Shown piece after piece: positions 5,500-29,390 of a stretch of DNA of 34,792 bases. Position numbers and translations under genes: made by a program. The notes under the pieces were generated by a model. That model was not told where the DNA came from. It searched no databases and saw nothing but the letters and a program-made list of their open reading frames with translations. The DNA is from Nitrososphaerota archaeon (GTDB taxonomy: Archaea; Thermoproteota; Nitrososphaeria; Nitrososphaerales; Nitrosopumilaceae), in assembly GCA_029782475.1 (NCBI GenBank), contig JARPSM010000013.1:1-34792 (forward strand). Direction: 5' to 3'. Within the stretch, counting starts at the first letter, position 1. Each line of letters starts with the position of its first letter.

Positions 5500-5666
5500 T
5501 CAATAATTGAATCTACATCAGTTCCTTTTTTGATCATAGAGATTTCATGACGAGCAATTTTGTTTCTTAGTGCTTGTTTGAGGATATCAACTTCACTTCT
5601 AAGTAATGCAATTTCGTCTTCAAGTTTTGCAACTCTCTCATAGATGGTTTCAGCTTCTGAACTCAT
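5496..5666 (-). CDS. small coiled-coil protein (56 aa)
   Basis: Manual translation MSSEAETIYERVAKLEDEIALLRSEVDILKQALRNKIARHEISMIKKGTDVDSIID*; not in the supplied ORF track. Confidence 0.6.
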   Translation of the reverse strand: MSSEAETIYERVAKLEDEIALLRSEVDILKQALRNKIARHEISMIKKGTDVDSIID

Positions 5667-5877
5667 AATTATCTATCAGCAAAAATTTGTCTTAAAAAGT
5701 TATGGGTAAATGTTTTGATGGACAGGTGGGTTTTTTTGAACTATAATTCAGACTAGGAAATATTGACTTTTTCTTTTAAAGACTGACTATTTTAGGCATA
5801 ATTTTCATTCAAAAAAGGTCTCAATCATACTCTTTCTAGATTTAATTTAATCATAAATTGTAATTTTAAAAAGATTT

Positions 5878-6843
5878 TTGTATTCTTGTTTTGAAGAAAA
5901 TGAATTGGATTACTTGCCATTTGTCAAATTCTTAAAATCTCAAATTTCTGATGATGTTTCTTGCAGTTTTGAACAAATTGAGCAAATTTTAGGAAAGCCT
6001 ATGCCTAGTTCTGCATACAAATATCCCGCATGGTGGGCAAATTCCCCTACTCATACACTGATGAATGCCGTTTTACATGCTGGATGGATGTCAAAAAAAA
6101 CAAATTTACAAAAAAAGACTGTTTCATTTTACAAGGATTCTTTGGCAATACAAAAGGCAGTATTAACTAAAGGTAAAAAAATAAAAAAACATACAATCGA
6201 TTTGGAAAAAGAAAAAGAATTTAGAAGAAATAGAGATACTCAATTGGAAAAAGAAAAACCCGATTTTGTTGTTGGTGGTAAAAATATCTATTTTGAACAG
6301 TTGATTGATGAATTTGTTTCCCATATTACTAAAGGTAAAACCGAAATTTACAATGAAGCAAGTGTTCAGTATGAACTTGCAATGTTTCTTAGAGAGAAAA
6401 TTCCAGATTATAAAATTCAACTAGAACGAAATGTAAAATTCTTTAATTTAGAAAAAAAGAATTTTGTGAAAAAAGAGATCGATATTGTATTGTTTATCAA
6501 GTCTCAAAATAAGAAATTTGCAATTGAAATAAAATTTCCAGTAAATGGTGAAATACCAATTCAAATGTTTCATTTTTGCAAAGATGTTAAATTCTTAGAA
6601 CAATTAAAAGAATCAGGCTTTACTGACAATTTCTTTTTAGCTCTTACCCCTCATAGATCTTTTTGGAACGATAATGGGAAACAAGGTACAATATATGAAA
6701 AATTTAGAAAAGAAAAAGAATTGTATGGAAAAATCAAAAATGACATCGGCGATAGTACAGAAAAAGTGAATCTCAATGGCAGGCACAAAATTAATTGGCT
6801 TTCAATAAATGATACTGTAAGATACTTTGTAATGAGAGTCTAG
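5878..6843 (+). CDS. DUF7662-like N-terminal domain fused to a PD-(D/E)XK nuclease-like domain
   Basis: N-term SFEQIEQILGKPMPSSAYKYPAWWANSPTHTLMNAVLHAGWMSKKTNLQKKTVSFYK; C-term EIDIVLF...KKFAIEIKFP (D...ExK). Confidence 0.65.
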   Translation: MYSCFEENELDYLPFVKFLKSQISDDVSCSFEQIEQILGKPMPSSAYKYPAWWANSPTHTLMNAVLHAGWMSKKTNLQKKTVSFYKDSLAIQKAVLTKGKKIKKHTIDLEKEKEFRRNRDTQLEKEKPDFVVGGKNIYFEQLIDEFVSHITKGKTEIYNEASVQYELAMFLREKIPDYKIQLERNVKFFNLEKKNFVKKEIDIVLFIKSQNKKFAIEIKFPVNGEIPIQMFHFCKDVKFLEQLKESGFTDNFFLALTPHRSFWNDNGKQGTIYEKFRKEKELYGKIKNDIGDSTEKVNLNGRHKINWLSINDTVRYFVMRV

Positions 6844-6846
6844 ATT

Positions 6847-7584
6847 TTGATCAAAATCAACAAAGAATCAGACATCACATATCTTAATGCATCAGTTACG
6901 GATTTTGCAGATTCTCTAGGGTACTGTGAGTACAAAATCCCACTATCAATTCAAGGGATTAAACCCAAACCTTCCCAGGCATTGATTCAAGGAACTAAAG
7001 CTCATTCTGCTGAAGAAAAATATGAAGCAGAACATGTTGAACTAGAACCAGTATCAGTTGAGCAAATTGAGGATAAAGAAGAAGACATTGAGTTTGCTCG
7101 AGAAAACATTCACTCTACCTTGATGATGCCCTTTGAATTTCCAAAAGAGAATGTATTGCTAACACTATCAGGCAGAATCGATAAAATTCTTAGAATTGAT
7201 GAAACTCTAGTAGTTCAAGATGACAAGTTTGCAGGTAGGCCTCAAGTGTATGATGGCAAGACACAGCCTTATCCTAGTCAACTACTGCAAGTGTTAGCAT
7301 ATCTCAATTCCAGTTTTTCAGCAAAAAGAAAACCAGATGTGGACGATTTTTTTGAAATGCCTCATACTCAGAAAAAATGGCAGATTAGAATTTGTGACAG
7401 AAAGACTAGAGAACCATACAAAGTATTCTCAGAAATACAAGATGCTTTCTCACTCCATTATCTACACACATCATTGCAGAAATTTACAACCATTTCACTT
7501 GGTATGGATGAACCTGAACACCACAATAGTGTAAACAAGTGTAATGCGTGTAATTTGAAATCTTTTTGTGATTATAAAATTTAG
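6847..7584 (+). CDS. Cas4/RecB-like PD-(D/E)XK nuclease with putative Fe-S cluster
   Basis: GRIDKILRIDETLVVQDDKF core; N-terminal Cys (GYCEYKI) plus C-terminal CNACNLKSFC (CxxC-x5-C). Confidence 0.7.
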   Translation: MIKINKESDITYLNASVTDFADSLGYCEYKIPLSIQGIKPKPSQALIQGTKAHSAEEKYEAEHVELEPVSVEQIEDKEEDIEFARENIHSTLMMPFEFPKENVLLTLSGRIDKILRIDETLVVQDDKFAGRPQVYDGKTQPYPSQLLQVLAYLNSSFSAKRKPDVDDFFEMPHTQKKWQIRICDRKTREPYKVFSEIQDAFSLHYLHTSLQKFTTISLGMDEPEHHNSVNKCNACNLKSFCDYKI

Positions 7585-7587
7585 AAT

Positions 7588-8072
7588 CTAATTTGTTTCT
7601 GCATTATCTGCCACCATTCGAGCAAATGCGCTATTTAGTTCACTAACAATTCTTAATGAAATTTTGGATAATTTTTGCATTGTTTCAAAACTATCCCATG
7701 TAGGATTCAGCCCTTTCAGTATTGATGTAACTTCCATATTTTCAATAATGGGATCAATCCTTTCAGGAATGATGTACAATGCATTGTATGTCCATTTGAT
7801 CACGAATATCTTCAATTCTTGTCAAGTCATCAAATAGTGCTTTATTGATAATTCCCCTTTCCAATAGAAATTGCTTTGTAAATTACAGCTAAATTTGCTT
7901 CTAGAGTATTTTTTCGTGTAGTGAATTCGTTGCGATGTTCTTCAACAAACTGATTTGAATTGATTTTATCGCCTATTTTCATTACTGCCAAACATCTGGC
8001 AAATTGTGGACGTATATCAAAACCATAATTTTTATCAAAATCAAATTCTTTGAGAACTTTGCAAGCCTTCAC
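7588..8072 (-). pseudogene. frameshifted hypothetical gene
   Basis: ORFs 7842-8072 and 7588-7815 abut; the third frame carries the bridging peptide IINKALFDDLTRIEDIRDQMD, implying two frameshifts. Confidence 0.5.
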
Positions 8073-8121
8073 GACGGCCTGTTAGTCGTTTTAGGTTATT
8101 TAGTGTAATTGTGTAAAAAAC

Positions 8122-8283
8122 CTATAATTCAAATTCCTGACGGCATTTTTCACATTTTGCTCTCTCTTCTCCAGGAGACCCAAGAATGAAAATTTTACCA
8201 ATTGTTTTACAAAGAGGACACATACCAGTGGTTGCATTTTTTGGACCAGTACGAATGATTTTTTGTGATTTTCTTCGTCCCAT
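8122..8283 (-). CDS. small zinc-ribbon protein (53 aa)
   Basis: Manual translation MGRRKSQKIIRTGPKNATTGMCPLCKTIGKIFILGSPGEERAKCEKCRQEFEL*; two CxxC knuckles. Confidence 0.8.
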   Translation of the reverse strand: MGRRKSQKIIRTGPKNATTGMCPLCKTIGKIFILGSPGEERAKCEKCRQEFEL

Positions 8284-8311: not shown

Positions 8312-8331
8312 GTTTTAATGGCGCGGGGAGA
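8312..8331. repeat. att-like direct repeat, copy of the tRNA-Ser 3' end (distal copy)
   Basis: gttttaatggcgcggggaga, identical to 11961-11980. Confidence 0.85.
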
Positions 8332-8389
8332 TAGTCAGACGCTTGAATTTTGCACTAGATACGAATTTTTGCTCTAGGAACAAATGGCA

Positions 8390-9592
8390 TTATAGAGAAA
8401 TTTTGAATTCCCATGGCCCTTCCAAAACAGAGAGTTTGTGGTGGGATGCAGACATGGTCCCCATGTTTGGAGGAACTGATGGAGGATGATCTCGCAGGCG
8501 TTCTCTTTTTGCCCATGCTATCTCATTTACAACAATTGTAATTTCTTTTGCATTGGGATCCAATGTAGAAAAAAACACATAGCCACCAGAATAGTTAGAT
8601 ATCATTTCATGAGATGTTGGATCAGGACCGCTACTTCCTCCTCCTCCGCCAGAATATCCATCTGAATATACATTACCTAGATCATCCTTGATTTGAATTG
8701 TCAGTTCCGGACTATCCATACGTATAGGCATATCATTAAATTTTGATGGGTTTGATAGAAGATCTTCTGAAAGCTTGATTCGCTGGTGAGTATACCAACT
8801 CAACTTCATGTTGTTTTCAAAGACTTCAAGTGAAGAAAATGCAATGTCAGTGTCATGCAAATGTAATTTTTTTACTATTGGGATCACCCTGAGAAGAGAC
8901 AAGGATTCTGGTTTTGGAAGTTTGTCTTTAAACTCACTGAATGGAATATTTTGAAATTCAAATTTTGTATTTTTTGTGACAATCCAAAACTCTTTGTCTT
9001 CAGGCTTTGCATCAACAATCAAAGATGAAAACTTTGGAGTGTGAGAATGTCCGCCCCTGGAAGTTTGTTGATGCTTTTGTGCAAAGTCATGTTGAAATGA
9101 TGTGTGTATTCTTTCTTTCTTTTTTACCAGTCTGCCAAACAGTGGTGAGAAATCAATATTGTCTTTGTAGTTGGGCATTGTTTTCTCTGTAAATTCCACC
9201 GTACCCAAGGTAATCACATCTGCTTCTGGAATTGCATCCTTGAAGTTTTCAGTCAGTTTTTCTAATTTTGCCAGCCTCATGCGTTTGGAAGGGCAAGCAT
9301 TACTAAATACAAGACTACTCATTATCATCTTGGGATATTCTATCTCTTTGTGGGATGGATTGAGATACTCAATTTGGATATCCTGTTGTTTTGTTTTTTC
9401 AAGATCTATCTGGCTTGATGAAAAGCAAAAGGCAACTGCCTTGTCCGTGCCTGAAACCTGTACAATGTCACCCTCGTTTATTCCGAGTTTTTCCATGTAT
9501 TGTGGCTCTATTTTGATTATAGTTTTACAGTGATCTTCGTTTTCAAGCAGATATGAGCTAAACGTGATGGAATTATCAGTGTCACTTGACAT
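8390..9592 (-). CDS. orphan protein: Cdc48-N/double-psi-beta-barrel-like N-terminus, Gly-rich beta-rich C-terminus
   Basis: N-term KIEPQYMEKLGINEGDIVQVSGTDKAVAFCF; C-term IKDDLGNVYSDGYSGGGGGSSG...YVFFSTLDPNAKEITIVVNEIAW...PWEFKISL. Confidence 0.55.
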   Translation of the reverse strand: MSSDTDNSITFSSYLLENEDHCKTIIKIEPQYMEKLGINEGDIVQVSGTDKAVAFCFSSSQIDLEKTKQQDIQIEYLNPSHKEIEYPKMIMSSLVFSNACPSKRMRLAKLEKLTENFKDAIPEADVITLGTVEFTEKTMPNYKDNIDFSPLFGRLVKKKERIHTSFQHDFAQKHQQTSRGGHSHTPKFSSLIVDAKPEDKEFWIVTKNTKFEFQNIPFSEFKDKLPKPESLSLLRVIPIVKKLHLHDTDIAFSSLEVFENNMKLSWYTHQRIKLSEDLLSNPSKFNDMPIRMDSPELTIQIKDDLGNVYSDGYSGGGGGSSGPDPTSHEMISNYSGGYVFFSTLDPNAKEITIVVNEIAWAKRERLRDHPPSVPPNMGTMSASHHKLSVLEGPWEFKISL

Positions 9593-10050
9593 TAAAACAA
9601 TGAGGATATACAGTGTTTTTTAGGTTTCCTCAAGAGATTATTCTTCATCAAGTATCATCCAAGACAATCCATAGAGTTGTTCCCAAGATTCAGTTTTATC
9701 ATTTGGCATGTTATAGTGTTACAAAATTTGCTTAAAACCCTAATGAACAAATCGTTCATAGAAATCATCAGTGTTCACTAAAGATTATTTTATAAAATCA
9801 AATTATAATTTAAACACTCACCAAACACTCAATCTACTTTGTTCTAAATTTCAGCTTTTGAAATGTTGGCCCACATGTTTTGACCAAGGATACAGTATTC
9901 ATCAGAGTTTGGGAAGAGTGTTATAGCAAAGAGACAAAGTTCGTGAACTAAAAATCATCGAAAAACTAGCGATTAGTGGATTTTATTAAGGTAAATGTGA
10001 ATAAGCGAACTGAAATGCATGAAAAATGACTCACGAACTTTTGCTTCTCG

Positions 10051-10404
10051 CTATAGTTTTTGCCATTTGCAGAGATTGTTGTTAATGTAATGTGGGTCAT
10101 TAAGGTATTCAAGACCAATCAGATTCATCTCAAAAGTATCGTTACAACAATCTAAAACCATTTGGAGTTGTTCTGGGCCGGATTTGTATGGTTCATCATT
10201 TTGTAAAACCTCATTTGAATCAAAATACACGCACTTGACGACTCTGTCAAAACCTTCATGGTTAATCTCACAAAATTTTTCATCATCCCAAGTAAACAAA
10301 TGACTTGAGAAATACCACATAGGAATAATTGAAACCAGTAAGATAGATGAAATTATTATTATTATTATTATTTTGTTTCTAATTTTTATTTTCTCTCCCA
10401 CCAC
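10051..10404 (-). CDS. membrane-anchored hypothetical protein
   Basis: N-terminal TM segment NKIIIIIIISSILLVSIIPMWYF; overlaps the next ORF. Confidence 0.5.
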   Translation of the reverse strand: MVGEKIKIRNKIIIIIIISSILLVSIIPMWYFSSHLFTWDDEKFCEINHEGFDRVVKCVYFDSNEVLQNDEPYKSGPEQLQMVLDCCNDTFEMNLIGLEYLNDPHYINNNLCKWQKL

Positions 10405-11432
10405 TTTGCATCATCATTTAACGCACACAATGACGGAAATTCAGAGTCCAACCCATAGTCTTTGACATAACTATCAACTATGGCACCACTGAAAAAACTA
10501 ATTCTGTAACCACTAGGTAGTTCACCACAGTATCCAACTGCATCAGGATCAGTAAAGTTGAGATTCAGTTTTCCAATTTTGAATTTTTGCTCAATGTTTT
10601 TCATTCCAGCATTGTTTTTGATGTAATCAAGCAAGATGTTTGCATATTTTTCCTCTTCATCTTCAGTAAAATAAGACAATTTCTCAAGTGTTAATACAGT
10701 CAAGTTGGTTTGTGCATTACAAAAACATGAAGTTGTGTTTACCTCACAAGGATGGGGGTTTTCTGGAAATAGCGTCATCGTCTTGGGGTTGGATATAGAA
10801 TCTATTTTGAACCAGTGAGTTACATCATCTGTATCAATTACTGCGCCGCACCCAGGACCACCTGAAAATGGTGGGCCTCTTGTTACCACCAGAGTGTTTT
10901 GAAGATAGTCTATTTGGTTTACAGATAGCAAGTAATCCATACCTGATGGAGGTACAGGGACTCTTAGTTCTTGTATGTACTCAGAAGCACATCCTTGCTT
11001 GCTTAGAATATTCTCAGTTACACAGTTATCTGATATGATCTTGAAAATTTGCACTTGTATTTTGTCTATAGATTCATGCTCTGCAAATGAGGTCATCAGA
11101 TAATATCGATTGCCGTCATCTGCAATAGACTCTGCCATGAAAAATTCATTTTCCCATTTGAAACCGTCAACAACTGTCAGCTGTTTAGAATTGATTCTAT
11201 ATTTTTCCAACGTCATATCAAATACAGTAGTTGCTTTTTGCTTTAGGAATTCCTCAAACGGCGCATCAGATCCAGAAAAACTGCAAGACAAGTCCCATTG
11301 TAATCCTTCTGAGCACTGCATATATGCAGGAACGTAAAGACATAACAAAAATAATGCGACTAGACAAATTGCAGATATCAAAATAATATGATTTTTGGTA
11401 ATCATTTTTTTTTTCTTCTTCTTCTTCCTCAT
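10386..11432 (-). CDS. membrane-anchored, Cys-containing extracytoplasmic protein
   Basis: Lys-rich N-terminus, TM helix IILISAICLVALFLLCLYVPA, long exported domain. Confidence 0.6.
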   Translation of the reverse strand: MRKKKKKKKMITKNHIILISAICLVALFLLCLYVPAYMQCSEGLQWDLSCSFSGSDAPFEEFLKQKATTVFDMTLEKYRINSKQLTVVDGFKWENEFFMAESIADDGNRYYLMTSFAEHESIDKIQVQIFKIISDNCVTENILSKQGCASEYIQELRVPVPPSGMDYLLSVNQIDYLQNTLVVTRGPPFSGGPGCGAVIDTDDVTHWFKIDSISNPKTMTLFPENPHPCEVNTTSCFCNAQTNLTVLTLEKLSYFTEDEEEKYANILLDYIKNNAGMKNIEQKFKIGKLNLNFTDPDAVGYCGELPSGYRISFFSGAIVDSYVKDYGLDSEFPSLCALNDDAKWWERK

Positions 11433-11458
11433 CTTGGCCTTTGTAATGTTCCTTAATC

Positions 11459-11770
11459 TCTTTTGCTCATCAATGTCTTTTGTAGTTGCACTCCATCCTC
11501 AAACTTTGCCATGATGTCTTTTTCCTTTTCAGTCATTACTCCCATGTAGTCAAGTGACTTTTCCTTGATGAAAGACACCAAATCCTCGTAGTCAATTACA
11601 AACCCCAGTATTACATGTCCAGTCTTGGCATCATCAAGGAGAGATGTTTTTGTTTTTTACATCCTCAATGATGCTACGGTATAATGTTTGGTGTAGATTG
11701 ATTGCAGTCAATATTTCAGGGAATATGTATGAGTTGTTGGAATAAATCACTGCCAAGATAATACCATTTT
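11459..11770 (-). pseudogene. frameshifted gene fragment at the tRNA side of the island
   Basis: Manual reading ILAVIYSNNSYIFPEILTAINLHQTLYRSIIEDVKNKNIS / LLDDAKTGHVILGFVIDYEDLVSFIKEKSLDYMGVMTEKEKDIMAKFEDGVQLQKTLMSKRD*, broken by one frameshift; boundaries approximate. Confidence 0.5.
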
Positions 11771-11960
11771 TGCATTAAAATAAATAAAAAATAAAATCAT
11801 AATTTGAAAATTCACTTTTTATCTATCTTTTATTTTTTAAAATATCTCTTTTTTAAAATAAGATAGATTTTAGAAAATATCTTTTATTTCAATAAAAGAT
11901 AGACATTTACATATTTTCAGAATGAATTAGCGCAAAATCGTAAGCTCCAGCTATACACAC

Positions 11961-11980
11961 GTTTTAATGGCGCGGGGAGA
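11961..11980. repeat. att-like direct repeat (tRNA-proximal copy)
   Basis: gttttaatggcgcggggaga, overlapping the tRNA 3' end and encoded CCA. Confidence 0.85.
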
Positions 11981-12054
11981 GGGATTCGAACCCACGAGTT
12001 CTTGCGAACATGAAATTAGCAATCTCACGCCCTACCGGGCTAGGCGACCCCCGC
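11971..12054 (-). tRNA. tRNA-Ser (anticodon GCT)
   Basis: Minus strand GCGGGGGTCGCC...TGAGA-TTGCTAA-TTTCA anticodon arm, long variable arm (type II), GGGTTCGAATCCC T-arm, CTCCCCGC-G followed by encoded CCA (11970-11968). Confidence 0.95.
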
Positions 12055-19527: not shown

Positions 19528-20751
19528 TCACATTTCAGAATCAAGCTTTTGAATTTTATCCGTGGTTTTTTTCTTTTTTATCTTTTTAGCTTTTGGTTTT
19601 TCAGACATAGTTTTTTCCTTGTCTTCTGTCTTGAATCCTAGATCTGGCTGTGGGCCCCATTCCATTTTTTCGAGTTTTTCACGTAATTCCATGGTTTTTA
19701 GGGAAACTGTTGTAACTTTTTTTAGCAGAGATATGACATGCTCTTTGTGGTCTGCAAAGTTGTATGTGTTGAATTTTTCTCTTACTTTTGGGTCATTTGA
19801 TGATTTATCTGATATTTGATTCTTGGTTTCTCTATAGAATTCCAGTATCCATTCCAATGCACATTTTGAGCCTAACATGTATTGGGTAGCTGTTGGCGGA
19901 ATACCTTTGAGGGTGGTGTTCTCATCAATAATTATTTTGTAATCATTCTCTTTTGTTTGCTTTAGTTGTAGTTTTACGTTGTTATGCTTTGATTTTTTTG
20001 TGCTAGATTCCAATCCATATTCTTTTTGATTGTCAAATTCTGTATGGATAAGAAATAATTCTTGTCCTATCTTTCTAAATAATTCAAAATTTTCTACTAG
20101 TGGAATTCGTGGAAATGTTCGTTGGAGATTAAATCTGTATATTTTTTCATACTTTGGATCATTTAGAATTGCATATACATAATAGAAAATATCCTCAATA
20201 GAAATTATGTTGTTTTTATAATACAAGCAGAATAACTCTTGACCATATTTTGTAATGTTAGTTTTACCATTAATGTACAATGGTATGCATTGAGCATTAT
20301 TGATACAATCATAACACATCATTTTTTCTGTCGCCAATACACTAAATTCTCTTGAAGGTTTAGGGTTTGTAAAACCTATTATTTTATTTTCTTTAAAATT
20401 TTGAAAAATACGATCAAATTTTCTTTTTCTATGAGTAATTATTTCATCAAAATATTGAAATTTATTACAAAATGGTCTATATGTGGATATTCTTATATTA
20501 TTATTTGAAAATTTTATTATTTTCTTTCTTTTTATATTATTAATTAGATTATCTGTTAGTTTTATTTTATAAATATTTCTATTATCTTTATTTTGATTTT
20601 TTATAAATTTGTTATAATATTCAATGAAATATTTAATTTTTTGAACAAGTTTTTTCTTATCAAAGTCATGTGTCCAATCATCTCTACCTGTCATATATCC
20701 CATAGACAATTCTTTGAAAAGTGATTTTCCGTCATTAGAAATGATGGGCAT
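19528..20751 (-). CDS. C-terminal target-recognition region of a type ISP-like restriction/modification enzyme (separated by frameshift)
   Basis: In-frame upstream extension without stop ILCQTVILPDKNHVWLNQTNNNFEEL-MPIISNDGKSLFKELSMGYMTGRDDWTHDF; continuous with the MTase apart from the GA tract. Confidence 0.8.
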   Translation of the reverse strand: MPIISNDGKSLFKELSMGYMTGRDDWTHDFDKKKLVQKIKYFIEYYNKFIKNQNKDNRNIYKIKLTDNLINNIKRKKIIKFSNNNIRISTYRPFCNKFQYFDEIITHRKRKFDRIFQNFKENKIIGFTNPKPSREFSVLATEKMMCYDCINNAQCIPLYINGKTNITKYGQELFCLYYKNNIISIEDIFYYVYAILNDPKYEKIYRFNLQRTFPRIPLVENFELFRKIGQELFLIHTEFDNQKEYGLESSTKKSKHNNVKLQLKQTKENDYKIIIDENTTLKGIPPTATQYMLGSKCALEWILEFYRETKNQISDKSSNDPKVREKFNTYNFADHKEHVISLLKKVTTVSLKTMELREKLEKMEWGPQPDLGFKTEDKEKTMSEKPKAKKIKKKKTTDKIQKLDSEM

Positions 20752-22667
20752 TAGTTCTTCAAAATTATTATTTGTCTGATTAAGCCATACATGATTCTTG
20801 TCTGGTAGAATAACTGTCTGACATAAGATCTCTCTCTCTCTCTCTCTCTCTCTCTAAGTATACCGCGCAAATTATTCTTTAGCCATTGGAGTTTCTCTTC
20901 TGTTTTTAGATAATCTGGAACTTCACTATAATGAATCTGGGCCAATTCATCAGGTTTCTTTTTTCCTGTCTTTACAAAAAATGATATTGATATTCCAACG
21001 CGTGCTTTTTGTCCAAATATTTTCCCTCCTTGTCTACGCCAAGCCTCTCCTGCAAGCCTAGCATTTCCTTTTAGATTAACAATGTGAATATGATCAAACT
21101 CTTCTGCTACAACTTTTCTAAAGCCATCATCGGATGTTGCTTCTAAAAAAGAATTGTTACTGATAAATGCAACAATACCCGAATTACCTATTCTATCAGT
21201 AGACCATCTCAAAAAACGTTTATACATATCATATTGAGCATTTTTACTTTTAGATATACTGCTTTCAACATAAGTATCTTTTATTCTCTCATCCACTTTT
21301 GGATAATCTTTTGCTGCATTGTTATCATTGTAGCTAACTTGAATTGCATTGTATGGAGGATTGCCAATAATTACCGATATCAATGTATTTCTTTGCTTTG
21401 TAATTCTCTTAATATTGTCATAGTTGCCAAACCATGCATCCATCTTGCTGAGATCTTTTACACCTGCATCTAATGTATCCATCCAACAAATGTTTTCAAA
21501 TTCTTTTGGTTTTCCTGTTCTCTTTTTGTATGTATTTTCAATGTTGAGAGCTGCAATATAATAAGCTAGAATAGATATGTCATCAGCAAAGATATCGTTT
21601 TTGTACTTTGATTCAAGACTGTCTTTATCAAAATATTCTAACATGTGTGAAACAAATGCTCCTGTACCTGTTGCAGGGTCAAGTATCTTTACGTTCTTTT
21701 CAGATATTGAACTATCAAAATATCGTTTTAGTAAAATGTCAGTTGACTCTATCATAAAGTCAACTACCTCAGAAGGTGTGTATACTATACCCTGTGTATC
21801 TGCTGCATCTCTGTTGTATTTTTCATAAAATGTCTCATATACCTTTTTTAGTAGTTCTTGCCTGTCTTTGTTCTCAGTAATTGATTCTGCAACAAGCTCA
21901 ATAGTAGTATAGTTTACGTTCATGGAATCGGCAGTTAGTCCAAGCAGTTCTATGAGATGATTAAGATTTCGGGCAACAACATTTGTCTTGTGAAATTCAT
22001 GCTCATCATAGACTAGTGCAAATATTCTAAATGTTAGAATATGCTGAATTAGCATCTCTGTTACATCATCAGAAGTTATCTTATCACTGATCACATTTTT
22101 GCACATTTCAAGAAATTCCTGCTTGTCTTTTTCATATTCTGGATTTGCCTTGCCTGATGCCTCAATAGCATCTCGGGTATCAAGTATTACCTCTTCTAGG
22201 TTATCTGCAAACTCATCTATTGCCTGCTGATATGTGTTAAATTGAGCAAATGCCTCTTTCATCTTGAGAATTGTTTTGACATCAGTATCTTCCTGTTTGA
22301 CTCCAATCTTTGCCATGAATTTTGTTAGAATGTTTTGCTGTGTGGAATCATTAATTACAATATGTGAGGGTTTTTGTTTACCGTCCTCGTATATTGGTGT
22401 GGAAAACACATAGTGATTTCCAGTAACATGCGTAACTATAAGGCACATGTTATTGTTTTTTGTGATTAGTTCAGTTGCAATGGAACGCCAGTTTGATTTT
22501 GCATCAACATGTATAACTACAAAATTTTCCTTTCTCGCAATTATATAACATGAACCAATAAATTTATTTTTTGAAATATTTCGTGTATCATACAAGTCAT
22601 CAGCATATGTATATCCCTTATTGACAAACAATATTCGCAGATCTTTGGCATTACTAGGCAGACTCAT
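20751..22667 (-). CDS. N6-adenine DNA methyltransferase, type ISP-like (truncated frame after the GA tract)
   Basis: VKILDPATGTGAFVSHMLEYF (motif I), SVIIGNPPYNAIQ (motif IV); ends ...LRERERERERSYVRQLF... Confidence 0.85.
   Translation of the reverse strand: MSLPSNAKDLRILFVNKGYTYADDLYDTRNISKNKFIGSCYIIARKENFVVIHVDAKSNWRSIATELITKNNNMCLIVTHVTGNHYVFSTPIYEDGKQKPSHIVINDSTQQNILTKFMAKIGVKQEDTDVKTILKMKEAFAQFNTYQQAIDEFADNLEEVILDTRDAIEASGKANPEYEKDKQEFLEMCKNVISDKITSDDVTEMLIQHILTFRIFALVYDEHEFHKTNVVARNLNHLIELLGLTADSMNVNYTTIELVAESITENKDRQELLKKVYETFYEKYNRDAADTQGIVYTPSEVVDFMIESTDILLKRYFDSSISEKNVKILDPATGTGAFVSHMLEYFDKDSLESKYKNDIFADDISILAYYIAALNIENTYKKRTGKPKEFENICWMDTLDAGVKDLSKMDAWFGNYDNIKRITKQRNTLISVIIGNPPYNAIQVSYNDNNAAKDYPKVDERIKDTYVESSISKSKNAQYDMYKRFLRWSTDRIGNSGIVAFISNNSFLEATSDDGFRKVVAEEFDHIHIVNLKGNARLAGEAWRRQGGKIFGQKARVGISISFFVKTGKKKPDELAQIHYSEVPDYLKTEEKLQWLKNNLRGILRERERERERSYVRQLFYQTRIMYGLIRQIIILKN
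20829..20855. repeat. (TC)13-T simple sequence repeat = A(GA)13 on the coding strand
   Basis: Uninterrupted dinucleotide tract in the MTase ORF, coding RERERERER. Confidence 0.95.
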
Positions 22668-22668
22668 A

Positions 22669-25600
22669 CTAATCCACCATGATACTGTACAGAATTCTGG
22701 GTTTTATTATTTCATCTCTTCTCGTTTCTCTAATGTCATCAATGTGTTCATCATAAATTGATTCCAATTCCGCCAAAAATTCCATATCTCCAATTCCTTT
22801 TTGAGCTGACTTGTGAAGATTCTTCATTTTTGTATCAAGTGTTCTATCAAGTATTGGATTACTGGAAAACTTTACCAAACGTGATATGTCTTTTTCTGTG
22901 TGTGGGTTTCTCTGTACAATCTCTATTAGTTTTGTAGAGAACCATTTCTGATATGCCTTTATTGAGGGCTGTCTTATCTTTACATGATTCATATCTGAAA
23001 TGAATTGCTCCCATGCAGCTTTGATTCTTTTATTATAATCAACTGCATCGTCTTTTGACTCTGTATTTGTGTATTCTTTGATTTTAGATAGTACAATTCC
23101 AGATGTTGTCTTTTTTGGATTCAAATCAGAGCCAACTTCATAATATCTTCTAAATGCAGTACCATTGGGATTTGTTGCCTCACAGCTAATCAACAGCATT
23201 TTATTTCCAACAGTAGATCTTATCCCGTATGGAAGGGATTCTATGTCCTGCCATTTTTCAGTATTTCGTATCTGTCTTACATCAGTCTCAAATTTTGATG
23301 CTTGAAATGACAATATATCATCAGTATCCAAGATATCATCATTTCTTTCATCGTAAACTGCATACATTGCATCAGTATTGACCTGTTCTGTATTGGTAAG
23401 AATTGGATTTCCCATACCGATTATAGCATGTATTTTACCAATCTTTGACTCTACAATCTTTTTTAGATTCAGGGAATCTTCTAGTTTTGGATTTGGTAAA
23501 AAGTTGATTATCTCTATTTTCTCATGATTACTTCCAATTCTATCGATTCTTCCCACTCTTTGAACTAGCTTTGTAGGATTCCAGTGAAAATCATAATTAA
23601 TAACCATCTGTCCAGTCTGAAGATTAACACCTTCAGCTAGAACATCAGTAGATATCAAAAGAGAAATCGGATTATCTATGCTTTCTTTGCCTGGATTATG
23701 TTCAGGATCAAAACGCCTTACAATATTCATCTTTTTTTCCGAGCTAGATGAAACAACAGCCATTTTGTCAGAAAGTTCCTTGATCTCTTTTTTTATGTAT
23801 CTTCCAATATATTCTGCTGTAACTTTTGATTCTGTAAATACCAGAATTTTTTTGTCAATATTTTTTTGAATTAGTTCCTTTAGTTTGTGAAGCTTTTCAT
23901 CATCTTTTTCTTTGTTTTTTGGTATTCGTGATTCTATTTCGTTGAATTTTGCAATGTCATTTATGATATCCTCTTGAAGTAGGTCTATATCAAATGCCTT
24001 GATATCATATTTTGATGTAATGTCAGGTATCTCAAAATCAATATCCTCTTCACCTTCTGATATGTCAATTATGGTGTCATAGATTTCTTTGGAGAATTCT
24101 TTTCCTATTGGCATCTTGCCTTCCCTGAGATACTCTATAAATCGATCACAGCCAAGCTTGTAGTGCTTTATGCTGTCTGCAAATGCAGCGACACTACTCT
24201 CCATTCTTTTTAGCAGGGATGTACGTATCAGTCCTTCTAGCGATGCAGATGATTTGAAGAGATTAACATATTTTTCATCATTTTGATACTCTGGTAGCAA
24301 GTATTTCCCTGGAACATATCTTGCAAGTTTCAGACTTTGATTTCCAAGTAATTGTTCTATTGAATCATATTTTCCAATGTATACCTTGTCAATGTCATAC
24401 TGTTCGGGATTTGACATGTCTCGTTTTGGGAAATATTGTCTTTTTTCATTTACAGTGATGTATGGTTTGTTATTCTCATCTTTGTCTGCATAGTTTTCAA
24501 TGATATATTTTCGTGTCCTGCGTATCATGACATGATGGAGAAAATCTCTAAATTCTTCTTTGTTGTTATCCAGTTTTTCCCTGCTGAATCTCTTGAAGAA
24601 CTCGTCTAATCCAACCTCGTCAGCAGGAGGTATGCTTGTTTCATTGCCATTTGGGAATAGTTTCAATTGATGCTTGATTTCTAGTAGATCATTTGAAAGC
24701 GGTGTTGCAGTAAGCAGTATGACCTTGGGATTATTTTTTATCATAAATGACTCTAGCATGTTGTATGATTTTGTATTGGTATTTCTGAAATTATGGCTCT
24801 CGTCAATTAAAACCAGATTGCAATTACTGTACTTTTCCATACTAAAATTATCTCGACCTAACTTTCCTCTGGATATTATCTTTGCATTGATATTGTTTGC
24901 ATCACTGTATTCTTCCCACATTGGAATCAGATGAGGCGGACATATTATCAGAGCATTTGTCTTATCACGCTCTTGCAGATATTTTAGTATTGTAGATCCA
25001 ATGTATGATTTTCCAAGACCAACAACATCAGCTACAATTATCCCACCATATTTTTCAAGTGATGATATCGAATCAATTACGGCATCTTTTTGGAAATCAA
25101 ACAGTTTCATGGTGTTTACTTTGATAATCTCTCGTTCTGTCTTTTGATCAAACTTGTGTTTGAATTCATGTGCAAGTGCCTTGTGATAGACATCTATTGG
25201 CTGGTATTTTTTTCCAGTCCATGAATTTGCCATAATATCTGCTAGTTCTTTAGTAAAAGGTTCGCTTTCGTTCCAGTGTTCCTCAAACCATTCAAGAAGT
25301 TTTACAGCATCACTTGGTTCTCGTGTCTTTAGATTAAGCTCACTATGCTCACGTATTCCCGATATGGACATGTTACTAGAGCCAACTATTGCTACTGCAG
25401 GAAGCTGATTATTATCTAGCTCAAATATGTACACCTTTGCATGAAGTTTTTCTTTGGTGTATACTCTGACTTGTAACTTTTCATTCTTAACCATTAATAG
25501 TAATTTACTCACAACGTCTTGATCAGAATCAGTCTGTGGCATGTATTCTAGAGATTGTTTGACTTTGGTGTTTGTATCTGATATCTTTTCATTGATGCTA

Positions 25601-25902
25601 TCTTGTGACGGATAGCCGTTTTGGGATATCTTCTTTTCAATACTTTGTAGATGTTCGTTGCTTTCAATTAATACCTCTGCTGTACGCTGATCTGTAGTTG
25701 GAGACATGAGTATTCGAACTGTATGATTTTTGTCAGAACTATTGTTTATCTTTTCAAAATAATCTACAATATTTGAAAATCCAGATATGAAAAAATATCC
25801 CACTGCAATGCTTGCCTTTTTTGTATCTGGAAGAATGTGTACTAGCTGATCCTCAAGTATGATGTTTTTATTATCAATTACCCTATCGTCAGTTATAGTC
25901 AT
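22669..25902 (-). CDS. PLD-domain plus SNF2/DEAD-box helicase (defence-type)
   Basis: LHAKVYIFELDNNQLPAVAIVGSSNMS (HKD-like), VADVVGLGKSYIGSTIL (Walker A), LVLIDESHNFRN (motif II), QRVGRIDRIGS (motif VI); 1 nt from the MTase start. Confidence 0.85.
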   Translation of the reverse strand: MTITDDRVIDNKNIILEDQLVHILPDTKKASIAVGYFFISGFSNIVDYFEKINNSSDKNHTVRILMSPTTDQRTAEVLIESNEHLQSIEKKISQNGYPSQDSINEKISDTNTKVKQSLEYMPQTDSDQDVVSKLLLMVKNEKLQVRVYTKEKLHAKVYIFELDNNQLPAVAIVGSSNMSISGIREHSELNLKTREPSDAVKLLEWFEEHWNESEPFTKELADIMANSWTGKKYQPIDVYHKALAHEFKHKFDQKTEREIIKVNTMKLFDFQKDAVIDSISSLEKYGGIIVADVVGLGKSYIGSTILKYLQERDKTNALIICPPHLIPMWEEYSDANNINAKIISRGKLGRDNFSMEKYSNCNLVLIDESHNFRNTNTKSYNMLESFMIKNNPKVILLTATPLSNDLLEIKHQLKLFPNGNETSIPPADEVGLDEFFKRFSREKLDNNKEEFRDFLHHVMIRRTRKYIIENYADKDENNKPYITVNEKRQYFPKRDMSNPEQYDIDKVYIGKYDSIEQLLGNQSLKLARYVPGKYLLPEYQNDEKYVNLFKSSASLEGLIRTSLLKRMESSVAAFADSIKHYKLGCDRFIEYLREGKMPIGKEFSKEIYDTIIDISEGEEDIDFEIPDITSKYDIKAFDIDLLQEDIINDIAKFNEIESRIPKNKEKDDEKLHKLKELIQKNIDKKILVFTESKVTAEYIGRYIKKEIKELSDKMAVVSSSSEKKMNIVRRFDPEHNPGKESIDNPISLLISTDVLAEGVNLQTGQMVINYDFHWNPTKLVQRVGRIDRIGSNHEKIEIINFLPNPKLEDSLNLKKIVESKIGKIHAIIGMGNPILTNTEQVNTDAMYAVYDERNDDILDTDDILSFQASKFETDVRQIRNTEKWQDIESLPYGIRSTVGNKMLLISCEATNPNGTAFRRYYEVGSDLNPKKTTSGIVLSKIKEYTNTESKDDAVDYNKRIKAAWEQFISDMNHVKIRQPSIKAYQKWFSTKLIEIVQRNPHTEKDISRLVKFSSNPILDRTLDTKMKNLHKSAQKGIGDMEFLAELESIYDEHIDDIRETRRDEIIKPRILYSIMVD

Positions 25903-25924
25903 GTACGGGATATTTTCTAATACA

Positions 25925-26085
25925 TTATTTAACCCATGTTAAATTTGAGAAATAAAAACCACCATTCATTGCAGATATTGATTCTGGATGCACTTCTCTG
26001 ATGATTTCGTTTGTGACAACACCGTACCAATTCTCATTTGTATACTGTCGATCAAAAGTTCTTGAATGTAGGCGGGCATCTACTG
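25925..26085 (-). pseudogene. orphan coding fragment upstream of the helicase
   Basis: Manual reading SLSVDARLHSRTFDRQYTNENWYGVVTNEIIREVHPESISAMNGGFYFSNLTWVK*; no start codon at its 5' end; boundary approximate. Confidence 0.35.
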
Positions 26086-26234
26086 ATAAACTTCATCACG
26101 TCAAGTTCCGGTGAGGTGTACGTTTGCACACATCTTCTAATAATTGATGTTTTGTGATAATTTTGCATTGACTAATACGATACAATCAACGATCAAAAAA
26201 TGATTATAATGATATTTACAAAAAAGGAATAGAT

Positions 26235-27674
26235 TTGTCATCCAACGCAACACAAAACCCAAAATTATTCTTTGACAAGGGCACCATTCGTATTGAAGAT
26301 AGTAAACTAATCAGAATTCCAGGTACAAAATTCGATGAAAGATCCAAAGCTCTCCGATCTTATGGTTTGAACTATTCAGAAATTGTGGAATATCTGAAAA
26401 AAAGCGGTTTGGATTTTACTGATAATGTGCCTGATTTCATACCATCGCCTGTTTTTCAAATGAGAAATTTGGAACTAAGAGACTATCAACTGCAAGCCAT
26501 ACAAAATTGGGAAAAATCATCCATGAGAGGTTGTGTCATTTTACCTACAGGTGCTGGAAAAACTGCCATAGGAATCAAAGCAATTCAAAAAGTAAATGCA
26601 TCTACACTGATAGTAGTTCCAACAATTGATTTAATGGAACAGTGGACAAACAACATTACCAAGTATCTCTCAACCGATAGTCAAAATCCTCAAGGTATTT
26701 TTGTTGGACAATTAGGGGGAGGAGAAGATAACCTTCAGGCAATCACGGTAACAACATATGATTCTGCGTATCTTCGAGCATCAACCATAGGAAATCAATT
26801 TAAATTGATAATCTTTGATGAAGTGCATCATCTGCCCGCATCTGGATACCGTTCAATTGCAGAACAATTCATTTCACCATATAGACTAGGTCTCACTGCA
26901 ACAATAGAACGAGAAGATGAATTACATGAGTTAATCCCATACCTTACTGGAGGAGTTGTGTTTCGTCTGGGGTCTCAAGAGCTCTCAGACCAAAAACACC
27001 TAGCAGAATATAGCATAAATAGAATTCAGGTTAACCTCACTCCAGAAGAACAAAAAGAATATGAGACAAACCACACAAAATTTCTAACAAATCTCAGACA
27101 GTTAGGATTCAAGGTTCCATCAATGTATAATCTCAAACGATTAATCATGATGTCCAACAAAAACAAGATTGCAAGAGAAGCAATGCTTGCAAGAAACAAA
27201 GCAAATGAGATTGCACTAAACAGTCAATCAAAGATAGATGAATTGCAAAAAATATTACAACAAAATAAAAACACAAAGACAATAATCTTTACCCAGAATA
27301 ACAAAATGGTCTATGATCTCTCAAACAGATTTCTTATTCCATACATTACCTACAAGACAATAAAGGAAGAAAGACGAGATGTTTTAGAGGGATTCAAGTC
27401 TGGCAGATACAATGCAGTTGTCACCTCGCGAGTCCTAGATGAAGGAGTAGACGTTCCTGATGCAGAATTGGGCATAATTATGAGCGGAACAGGCAGTGGA
27501 CGAGAACTGATACAGAGGTTAGGCAGAATTCTAAGGCCAAAACAAGATGGCAGAAAGGCAAGGTTAGTTGAACTGGTTTCAAAACACACACGAGAAACAA
27601 ACACCAGTGCAAAAAGAATAACTGCACTGAACAAAAATTCTACTAATCAAAATTCATCGTCCTACGGAGTGTAA
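26235..27674 (+). CDS. xpb: XPB-like SF2 helicase
   Basis: LRDYQLQAIQNWEKSSMRGCVILPTGAGKT, IIFDEVHHLPA, RLGLTATIERED, QRLGRILRPK; upstream of Bax1. Confidence 0.85.
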   Translation: MSSNATQNPKLFFDKGTIRIEDSKLIRIPGTKFDERSKALRSYGLNYSEIVEYLKKSGLDFTDNVPDFIPSPVFQMRNLELRDYQLQAIQNWEKSSMRGCVILPTGAGKTAIGIKAIQKVNASTLIVVPTIDLMEQWTNNITKYLSTDSQNPQGIFVGQLGGGEDNLQAITVTTYDSAYLRASTIGNQFKLIIFDEVHHLPASGYRSIAEQFISPYRLGLTATIEREDELHELIPYLTGGVVFRLGSQELSDQKHLAEYSINRIQVNLTPEEQKEYETNHTKFLTNLRQLGFKVPSMYNLKRLIMMSNKNKIAREAMLARNKANEIALNSQSKIDELQKILQQNKNTKTIIFTQNNKMVYDLSNRFLIPYITYKTIKEERRDVLEGFKSGRYNAVVTSRVLDEGVDVPDAELGIIMSGTGSGRELIQRLGRILRPKQDGRKARLVELVSKHTRETNTSAKRITALNKNSTNQNSSSYGV

Positions 27675-27719
27675 TATGTGGTATAACAAAATAATAAAAA
27701 TAATTGGGAGACAGTTCTA

Positions 27720-29390
27720 ATGCTTTCATCTGAACTGTTACGTACTAAAATTAGCAGAGGTAAGATAACACCATTATTTTGTACTACTAACTTTGGAAAT
27801 GGTACTGATTACGAACTTGCAAACAAACTCATTGTATTTTTTACAAATGCACAAAAAAATAAACAGTGTAAAGGGAATTTACTACAAAATATTGGATTGC
27901 TTGAATCTGAATATGATTACAAACTAGTACGTGGATTCTTTGCATTGTTAGAGAGACGTTCTATTTTTAGGCGATTAAACACATCATCGTCTATTGCAAC
28001 TCCAATACTAATTAGACAGAAATTGTTTGAGGAATCCTCAAAGCAAGGTTTGGCTTTGTCGGATTCCCAGAGACAAGACATCATACAAAAAGTTGCAGAT
28101 CAGATGCATATTTCATCAGAAAATGTTGAAACGATAATGTGGAGTGATAAAGATGAGAATCTGTTATTGACACAATTTGACACCATCAGTCCCAAAGATC
28201 TAATTTTATGGTATAATCTTTCATTGTTTCAAACACTTCTTTTCAAATGCACTAGGTTGGAATTTTATGTAAAGGGTGGGTTGTATTGGAAACAAGTTCT
28301 GCGAAATGTCAAAAGATATGGTCTGATGTATAATTTGGAATATTATTCAAAGGGTATTTCAGATGATGATGGTGATGGTGGTGATGGTAGTGGTGGTTCC
28401 ATCAAATGTACTCTAGAAGGCCCTTTCAGTCTCTTCAAAATGACTGATAGGTATGGTACATCAATGGCCAAATTATTGCCCTCGATTGTAGGCACACCAA
28501 CCTGGAAAATCAATGGTTCCATAATGAAAAAAACAGATGATGGTCAAAAAATCTATTCATTTGAATTATCAAATGAAAGTACCAAAGAATTTCTTCGCTC
28601 AACAATAGAATCTCCGTACCAAAATGAGGATGATTATGTTTATGACAGTTCTACAGAAGCCACATTTGCAAAAAGGTTCCATCAGCACTTTGATCAAAAT
28701 GACAAGTTTGGATGGAAAATTTCTAGAGAACCTGACCCATTAATTGCAGATGGTAAAGCAATGATTCCTGATTTTCTTTTTGAGAGGTTTGGACGTAAAG
28801 TATATTTTGAAATTGTGGGGTTTTGGACAAAAGAATATCTTGATAGAAAAGCTGCCAAGCTAAAAGTGTTATTTGATGATGATAATAAAAGTGCGGATTT
28901 GTTGGTAGCAGTAAATTCTGAATTGGCATGTTCACAGATTGAAACAATTTCTAAAGATAAGATTTTTACTTTTCAAAAAGATGTTTCAATCAAGCCAATT
29001 TTAGAACATTTAAAAAAAATTGATGCTGAAATAATTGAAGAAAAGATTCATACCAAAATAAAACTGGATGAAAAAAACCTAGATTTAATTTCTATAAAGC
29101 AAGTTGCTCTTGAAAATTCTCTTCCAGAGGCGGCAACATTAAAGATTCTTCTGGCTGATTATCCAGATGAGTATGTTATAGCAGGAGGATATTTGGTTTC
29201 AAATAAGAAAATCAACATAATGAAGAATAATCTTGATGGAATCTCAAAGTTTGTAGAGGCTTGTAAAATCTTGACATTACAAAAAATTCCCGATTCATGT
29301 CATGCTGATTTATTATCAAAAATGGATTACGATGTAGTTTGGGAGGATTTGGATCCCAATCATGCTAAAATATCAAAACGTGCAGCATAA
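27720..29390 (+). CDS. bax1: Bax1-like nuclease (DUF790), XPB partner
   Basis: MLSSELLRTKISRGKITPLF; IPDFLFERFGRKVYFEIVGFWTKEYLDRKAAKL. Confidence 0.85.
   Translation: MLSSELLRTKISRGKITPLFCTTNFGNGTDYELANKLIVFFTNAQKNKQCKGNLLQNIGLLESEYDYKLVRGFFALLERRSIFRRLNTSSSIATPILIRQKLFEESSKQGLALSDSQRQDIIQKVADQMHISSENVETIMWSDKDENLLLTQFDTISPKDLILWYNLSLFQTLLFKCTRLEFYVKGGLYWKQVLRNVKRYGLMYNLEYYSKGISDDDGDGGDGSGGSIKCTLEGPFSLFKMTDRYGTSMAKLLPSIVGTPTWKINGSIMKKTDDGQKIYSFELSNESTKEFLRSTIESPYQNEDDYVYDSSTEATFAKRFHQHFDQNDKFGWKISREPDPLIADGKAMIPDFLFERFGRKVYFEIVGFWTKEYLDRKAAKLKVLFDDDNKSADLLVAVNSELACSQIETISKDKIFTFQKDVSIKPILEHLKKIDAEIIEEKIHTKIKLDEKNLDLISIKQVALENSLPEAATLKILLADYPDEYVIAGGYLVSNKKINIMKNNLDGISKFVEACKILTLQKIPDSCHADLLSKMDYDVVWEDLDPNHAKISKRAA

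Follow-up and report, generated by a model that had tools for sequence, protein, structure and literature searches.

A casposon-derived island without a casposase gene at the 3' end of tRNA-Ser(GCT) in a Nitrosopumilus-group archaeon

The island located at positions 8326-11960 (3,635 bp) of the window, i.e. of the whole analyzed stretch of 34,792 nucleotides, very probably represents a casposon without a casposase: a non-autonomous, internally deleted element at the 3' end of tRNA-Ser(GCT). Casposons are transposons whose movement relies on a Cas1 enzyme related to the integrase that inserts CRISPR spacers. In gene content, the island does not qualify as an autonomous casposon; its ends, its target-site duplication (TSD), its insertion register and its descent mark it as casposon-derived. 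The hosting assembly belongs to the Nitrosopumilus group and comprises 1.92 Mb in 157 contigs at 98.5% completeness. The target locus contains the following features:

11968-12054, minus strand: tRNA-Ser(GCT), the target gene, left intact (ARAGORN and Rfam)
11983-11989, minus strand: T-loop motif TCGAATC at the position of the casposase 'leader' motif (sequence; compare the A. boonei motif)
11961-11974, minus strand: tRNA-side copy of the 14-bp TSD, CGCGCCATTAAAAC (comparison of casposon registers)
8312-8325, minus strand: distal copy of the 14-bp TSD, followed by the native flank TTAATAGACCG (comparison of junctions)
8326-8331, minus strand: TCTCCC, six bases beyond the 14-bp TSD that complete the 20-bp repeat (compared with the termini in genomes G030, G061, G080 and G096)
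8122-8283, minus strand: zinc-ribbon gene, the native neighbor, which adjoins tRNA-Ser in genomes with an empty site (comparison of congeners)

An exact 20-bp repeat is present at 8312-8331 and at 11961-11980, the upper copy covering the 3' end of tRNA-Ser(GCT), whose encoded CCA corresponds to positions 11968-11970. Shuffled sequences gave zero expected matches, and no third copy was found genome-wide with up to three mismatches allowed. The perfect repeat described in the earlier note on this DNA thus proved to be exact and unique in the genome. That note had also named a decayed tRNA gene at 8312 as a case that would speak against an insertion; this candidate was rejected, since no T-arm precedes the copy and none of the tools called a tRNA there.

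In order to locate empty sites, a query of 166 bases, consisting of the tRNA through position 11961 joined to the flank below 8312, was compared with 95 congeneric genomes. In 75 of them the entire query was contiguous, and in G081 and G084 most of it was. Read base by base, the empty junctions follow the order tRNA-...CTCCCCGCGCCATTAAAAC-TTAATAGACC-zinc ribbon. Because the query is uninterrupted in these 75 congeners, the 3.6 kb represent an insertion, and the native flank sits beyond the copy at 8312. An ancestral gene order including both repeats was rejected on the same basis. Hence, the empty site joining tRNA-Ser to the zinc-ribbon gene, which the earlier note had suggested looking for, exists in the congeners, and the proposed insertion of a mobile element at the tRNA 3' end holds. 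At 5500-8120, where congeners have about 240 bp separating a SirB1-like gene from the zinc ribbon, the window carries a second insertion. It contains genes for a DUF7662 protein and a Cas4/Exo5-like PD-(D/E)XK protein, together with two short ORFs. Further away, PADLOC predicted a defense-like cluster (19528-29390) with a type IIG/I-like restriction-methylase split into two ORFs, an HKD+Snf2-like helicase, a PbeA-like helicase and a 556-aa protein without match.

Regarding the repeat, its exact length of 20 bp was confirmed, whereas its reading as a single unit was not: the functional repeat comprises 14 bp, and the remaining 6 bp belong to the element terminus on one side and to the tRNA acceptor stem on the other. 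The TSD consists of the last 4 bp of tRNA-Ser plus 10 bp and is present on both sides, in agreement with the 14-15 bp of the casposase register, and the T-loop motif TCGAATC is located exactly 8 bp upstream of it. Judged from the compared termini, the bases TCTCCC at 8326-8331 are the element terminus, and their identity with the tRNA acceptor stem is coincidental. In Methanosarcina mazei, the TSD likewise combines the final 4 bp of a tRNA, here tRNA-Leu, with 10 bp of flank and begins with CGCA (PMC6977970). The casposase of Aciduliprofundum boonei recognizes the motif TCAAATC, which is located 8 bp upstream of its TSD (PMC6614799). The M. mazei terminal inverted repeat (TIR) begins with GGGATATAG (PMC10359463), which is nearly matched by the right termini of the G030 element (GGGAATATAG) and of the window (GGGAGATAG).

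Furthermore, cas1-bearing casposons were found at tRNA-Glu(CTC) in G080 and G096. Their TSDs of 14 bp (AGCACGTTTCTATT and AGCATTACATTTTT, respectively) consist of the discriminator with three acceptor bases before it and ten bases after it, and the adjacent TIRs begin with GGGGTATAG or GGGAATATAG. Applied to the window, this register yields GGGAGATAG as right and GTGTGTATAG as left terminus. The latter is confirmed by G012, where GTGTGTATAGTTG follows a different target, CGCGTAATTAGTAT; against the casposon reading, the left terminus of the window begins with GTGTG and not with GGG. In G096 (L136 and L137), a tandem pair of casposons occupies tRNA-Glu(CTC), each starting after AGCATTACATTTTT. 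The termini of the island and the adjoining remnants are:

11929-11960, minus strand: left (tRNA-side) terminus, imperfect TIR GTGTGTATAGCTGGAGCTTACGATTTTGCGCT (shuffles and pattern match)
8326-8356, plus strand: right terminus, imperfect TIR GGGAGATAGTCAGACGCTTGAATTTTGCACT (shuffles and pattern match)
11692-11960, minus strand: left-end block of 269 bp, homologous to the G030 casposon at its left end (81%, E = 3.5e-62)
11445-11741, minus strand: remnant of a wHTH gene, truncated and frameshifted; wHTH normally precedes cas1 (tblastn and translation)
11692-11709, minus strand: internal deletion junction ACTGCAATCAATCTACA, resembling L033:18222-18239 and L033:15866-15883

TIRs are present in imperfect and short form, and both match other casposon ends. 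The score of the left terminus against the left ends of G030 and G012 was reached by 0 of 2000 shuffles, and the same result was obtained for the right terminus against the right ends of G030 and G061. Moreover, the pattern ATAG N8-15 TTTTGCRCT occurs four times genome-wide, twice exactly at the island termini. Aligned freely with each other, the two termini of the window showed no significant similarity (182 of 2000 shuffles were as good). This weak resemblance between the window's own left and right termini counts against the casposon reading; the TIR assignment rests on comparison with the ends of other casposons.

A relative is present as a 15.8-kb element in G030 (L033:2669-18487), inserted at the same tRNA-Ser site with an identical 14-bp duplication. 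It encodes a Cas1 (Pfam E = 5e-55) whose best solved relative, the M. mazei casposase 6opm, aligns with it along the entire protein (E = 2e-74, compared with E = 8e-25 for the best CRISPR Cas1), as well as HNH, HTH and wHTH proteins, the start of a truncated polB and other cargo. The cluster polB, HNH, HTH, wHTH and cas1 recurs in further congeners; by its casposase-like Cas1 and this recurring cluster, the G030 element is a casposon. In G096, the polB product has 910 aa, and wHTH and the beginning of cas1 overlap; no name for the polymerase was obtained from Pfam, PHROGs or PDB, and it is called PolB from its motifs DFTSMYP, KIVANSSSYG and YCDTD. Large regions in G083 and G021 (L094/L095 and L098-L100) have the look of casposon graveyards: they harbor several Cas1 genes or pieces of them, paralogues of Cdc48-N, and cargo genes for extracellular or membrane proteins that recur.

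Descent of the island from a cas1-bearing element is evident from the homology of both ends and of the wHTH remnant to the G030 casposon, with which the remnant is collinear. The 'frameshifted fragment' of the earlier note was identified as this truncated casposon wHTH gene (62% to the L033 wHTH in tblastn, over residues 155-209, E = 7e-22). At the junction ACTGCAATCAATCTACA, the window passes from left-end to wHTH sequence, and two parent sites, ACTACAATCACTACA and ACTGCAAACAATCTACA, resemble it. Recombination at this short imperfect repeat probably removed polB, HNH and HTH and truncated wHTH. Unlike the island, the G030 casposon retains cas1, HNH, HTH and part of polB. No cas1 is present in the island and no casposase was found in the host genome; a weak Cas1-like match in the host (C92) was rejected as an unrelated 184-aa protein. 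A family B DNA polymerase is also missing from the island, its region having been lost with the internal deletion. The absence of both casposon-defining genes is a point against placing the island in the casposon class, as is the truncation of polB in the G030 element used for comparison. A host casposase could reside in unassembled DNA, since the genomes are mostly draft assemblies. A search of the 95 genomes for a further copy of this Cas1-less element gave no match.

The remaining part of the island is occupied by cargo genes and nested sequences:

8390-9592, minus strand: stand-alone Cdc48/p97 N-domain-like protein with a beta-rich C-terminal part (relatives and structure model)
10386-11405, minus strand: 339-aa protein, by prediction membrane-anchored; homologues occur in G021 and G105; no Pfam family
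10051-10404, minus strand: 117-aa ORF with an N-terminal hydrophobic segment, no Pfam family
9922-10055, no strand: nested MITE (about 135 bp; inverted ends of 25 bp, TATAGC...GTTCGTGA) with 21 matches in the genome
9633-9782, no strand: intergenic stretch resembling sequences of G012 (L035), G061 (L093) and G017 (L034) (comparison)

The membrane and Cdc48-N-like genes that the earlier note had placed in the island were recovered as predicted products; no family was found for the 339-aa and 117-aa proteins. Relatives of the Cdc48-N-like protein are present in six congeners (61-81%) and, more distantly, in others. A database contig search retrieved one relative, in a Nitrosopumilus MAG. With a dN/dS of about 0.13 against G061, the gene is under purifying selection. 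In G061, a casposon right terminus follows the Cdc48-N-like gene as in the window; the left TSD of this relative was looked for and not found. The structure model of the protein is modest (pLDDT 67, pTM 0.53), and its best matches are p97/Cdc48 N-domains (E ~1e-8). The protein looks like a stand-alone N-domain without ATPase, and one may speculate about a role as adaptor or decoy for the host Cdc48 machinery. Some genomic copies of the MITE lie near tyrosine-integrase genes, and the G017 counterpart of 9633-9782 adjoins an IS5-like transposase.

Concerning the history of the locus, the tree of the SirB1-like neighbor gene placed the window as sister to G035 and G030 as sister to G012 (both pairs 100/99). 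The tRNA-Ser site is empty in both sister genomes; for this reason, the insertions in the window and in G030 are best read as independent, which is the simplest reading, and the island entered its site only after the lineages of the window and G035 had separated. In G064 (L191), a 1.7-kb insert at the same tRNA-Ser was considered as a casposon and rejected: it encodes an MscS-like channel and another ORF and shows no casposon termini.

Location at a tRNA 3' end, direct repeats and restoration of the tRNA are typical of insertion by tyrosine integrases, and the earlier note had accordingly explained the island as the product of such an integrase, namely a satellite or remnant arising from recombination between attP and an attB in tRNA-Ser. 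The 20-bp direct repeat fits this explanation, although it is better described as a 14-bp TSD plus 6 bp; furthermore, integrase islands use the same tRNA-Ser in G017 and G003, and several integrase genes are present in the host. However, both island ends are casposon ends, the 14-bp register fits casposases, and neither a tyrosine recombinase in the element nor one in the genome matching the att sequence was found, the 20-mer being devoid of other genomic copies. The lack of an integrase between the two copies had been stated correctly. The integrase islands in G017 (L034) and G003 (L039) also differ from the window: they read CGCGCTTAG or CGCGCTTCT after the acceptor, so that CCA is lost (CGCGCTT) and the boundary is another one, the core is shorter, the integrase gene adjoins tRNA-Ser, and casposon termini are absent. 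The encoded CCA is likewise missing in G043 (L042). Given the end homology, the register and the contrast to true integrase islands, insertion by a tyrosine integrase is considered highly improbable; since tRNA-Ser(GCT) is a hot spot shared with integrase islands, the earlier inference is explained.

Within the casposon reading, two courses of events were weighed. That a full casposon was inserted and was then stripped, at this site, of genes including polB and cas1, leaving a dead remnant, appears narrowly probable. The short imperfect repeat at the deletion junction and the frameshifts in the wHTH remnant support this course, and the truncated polB of G030 indicates that decay in place happens; the cargo, which is intact and differs from that of G030, and the undated deletion count against it. 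As a possible, though not favored, course, the deletion may have come first, the resulting natural mini-casposon then jumping into tRNA-Ser by means of a casposase acting in trans. In line with mobilization, neither the termini nor the TSD copies are damaged, the insertion postdates the G035 split and the cargo is under purifying selection. Moreover, in M. mazei, an engineered TIR-only mini-casposon, which like the island has ends and TSDs without cas1, was mobilized by the Cas1 encoded on the chromosome (PMC10359463). This construct is artificial and depends on a resident casposase, whereas the window's genome yielded none; in addition, the same Cas1-less element was not seen twice in the 95 genomes, the wHTH fragment has decayed and a MITE has entered. 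The alternatives offered by the earlier note, a satellite mobilized in trans or a decayed remnant, are therefore still the right pair, without their tyrosine-integrase basis.

Among known systems, the family 2 casposons of M. mazei and A. boonei (MetMaz-C1, AciBoo-C1) resemble the island in the 14-bp TSD (M. mazei) and in TCRAATC at -8 bp (A. boonei). Relatives also possess polB, HNH and a casposase with C-terminal extension; the island differs by the absence of cas1, polB and HNH, by its target tRNA-Ser(GCT) and by its short imperfect TIRs. According to the covered parts of two reports, the thaumarchaeal casposons NitAR1-C1, NitNF5-C1, NitNF5-C2 and NitNCS1-C1 are, like the island, bounded by TIRs and TSDs, carry variable cargo and occur in the same host group, but they possess cas1 and target ef-2, a glycine-ligase gene, an intergenic site and tRNA-Pro; these parts make no mention of tRNA-Ser or tRNA-Glu targets (PMC4046053, PMC6563490). 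Cryptic integrated elements and tyrosine-integrase islands of Thaumarchaeota are also located at tRNA 3' ends (PMC6563490). A search of the literature available without subscription revealed no report on natural Cas1-less or non-autonomous casposons.

We infer from the ends and the register that the insertion was carried out by a casposase. A Cas1-type enzyme from a fuller parent element, now gone from the genome, would have recognized the T-loop motif TCRAATC and made a staggered cut of 14 bp at the tRNA 3' end, to which the 3' ends of the element would have been joined. Subsequent gap repair would have produced a second copy of the terminal 4 bp of the tRNA and of 10 bp of flank, the tRNA staying intact. 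Before or after insertion, the short imperfect repeats would have recombined with loss of polB, HNH and HTH and truncation of wHTH, and cas1 would also have disappeared, leaving the two termini, the wHTH fragment and the cargo genes.

Casposons are recognized by a Cas1-solo together with PolB, and derivatives without Cas1 are consequently missed and mistaken for integrase islands, as happened with the present one. The ends ATAG N8-15 TTTTGCRCT, combined with the rule 'T-loop TCRAATC + 8 bp + 14-bp TSD', provide a way to find them. Furthermore, tRNA-Ser(GCT) and tRNA-Glu(CTC) are added to the casposon targets, in a marine ammonia oxidizer, and the insertion register in Nitrosopumilus is the same as in distant Euryarchaeota. 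It is tentatively proposed that the island may be a natural non-autonomous casposon, comparable to a MITE or satellite transposon, bringing accessory genes to tRNA-Ser by means of casposases that other elements within the Nitrosopumilus population provide in trans. The natural occurrence of casposons stripped of their own Cas1 bears on the question of how Cas1 could separate from transposon ends en route to CRISPR.
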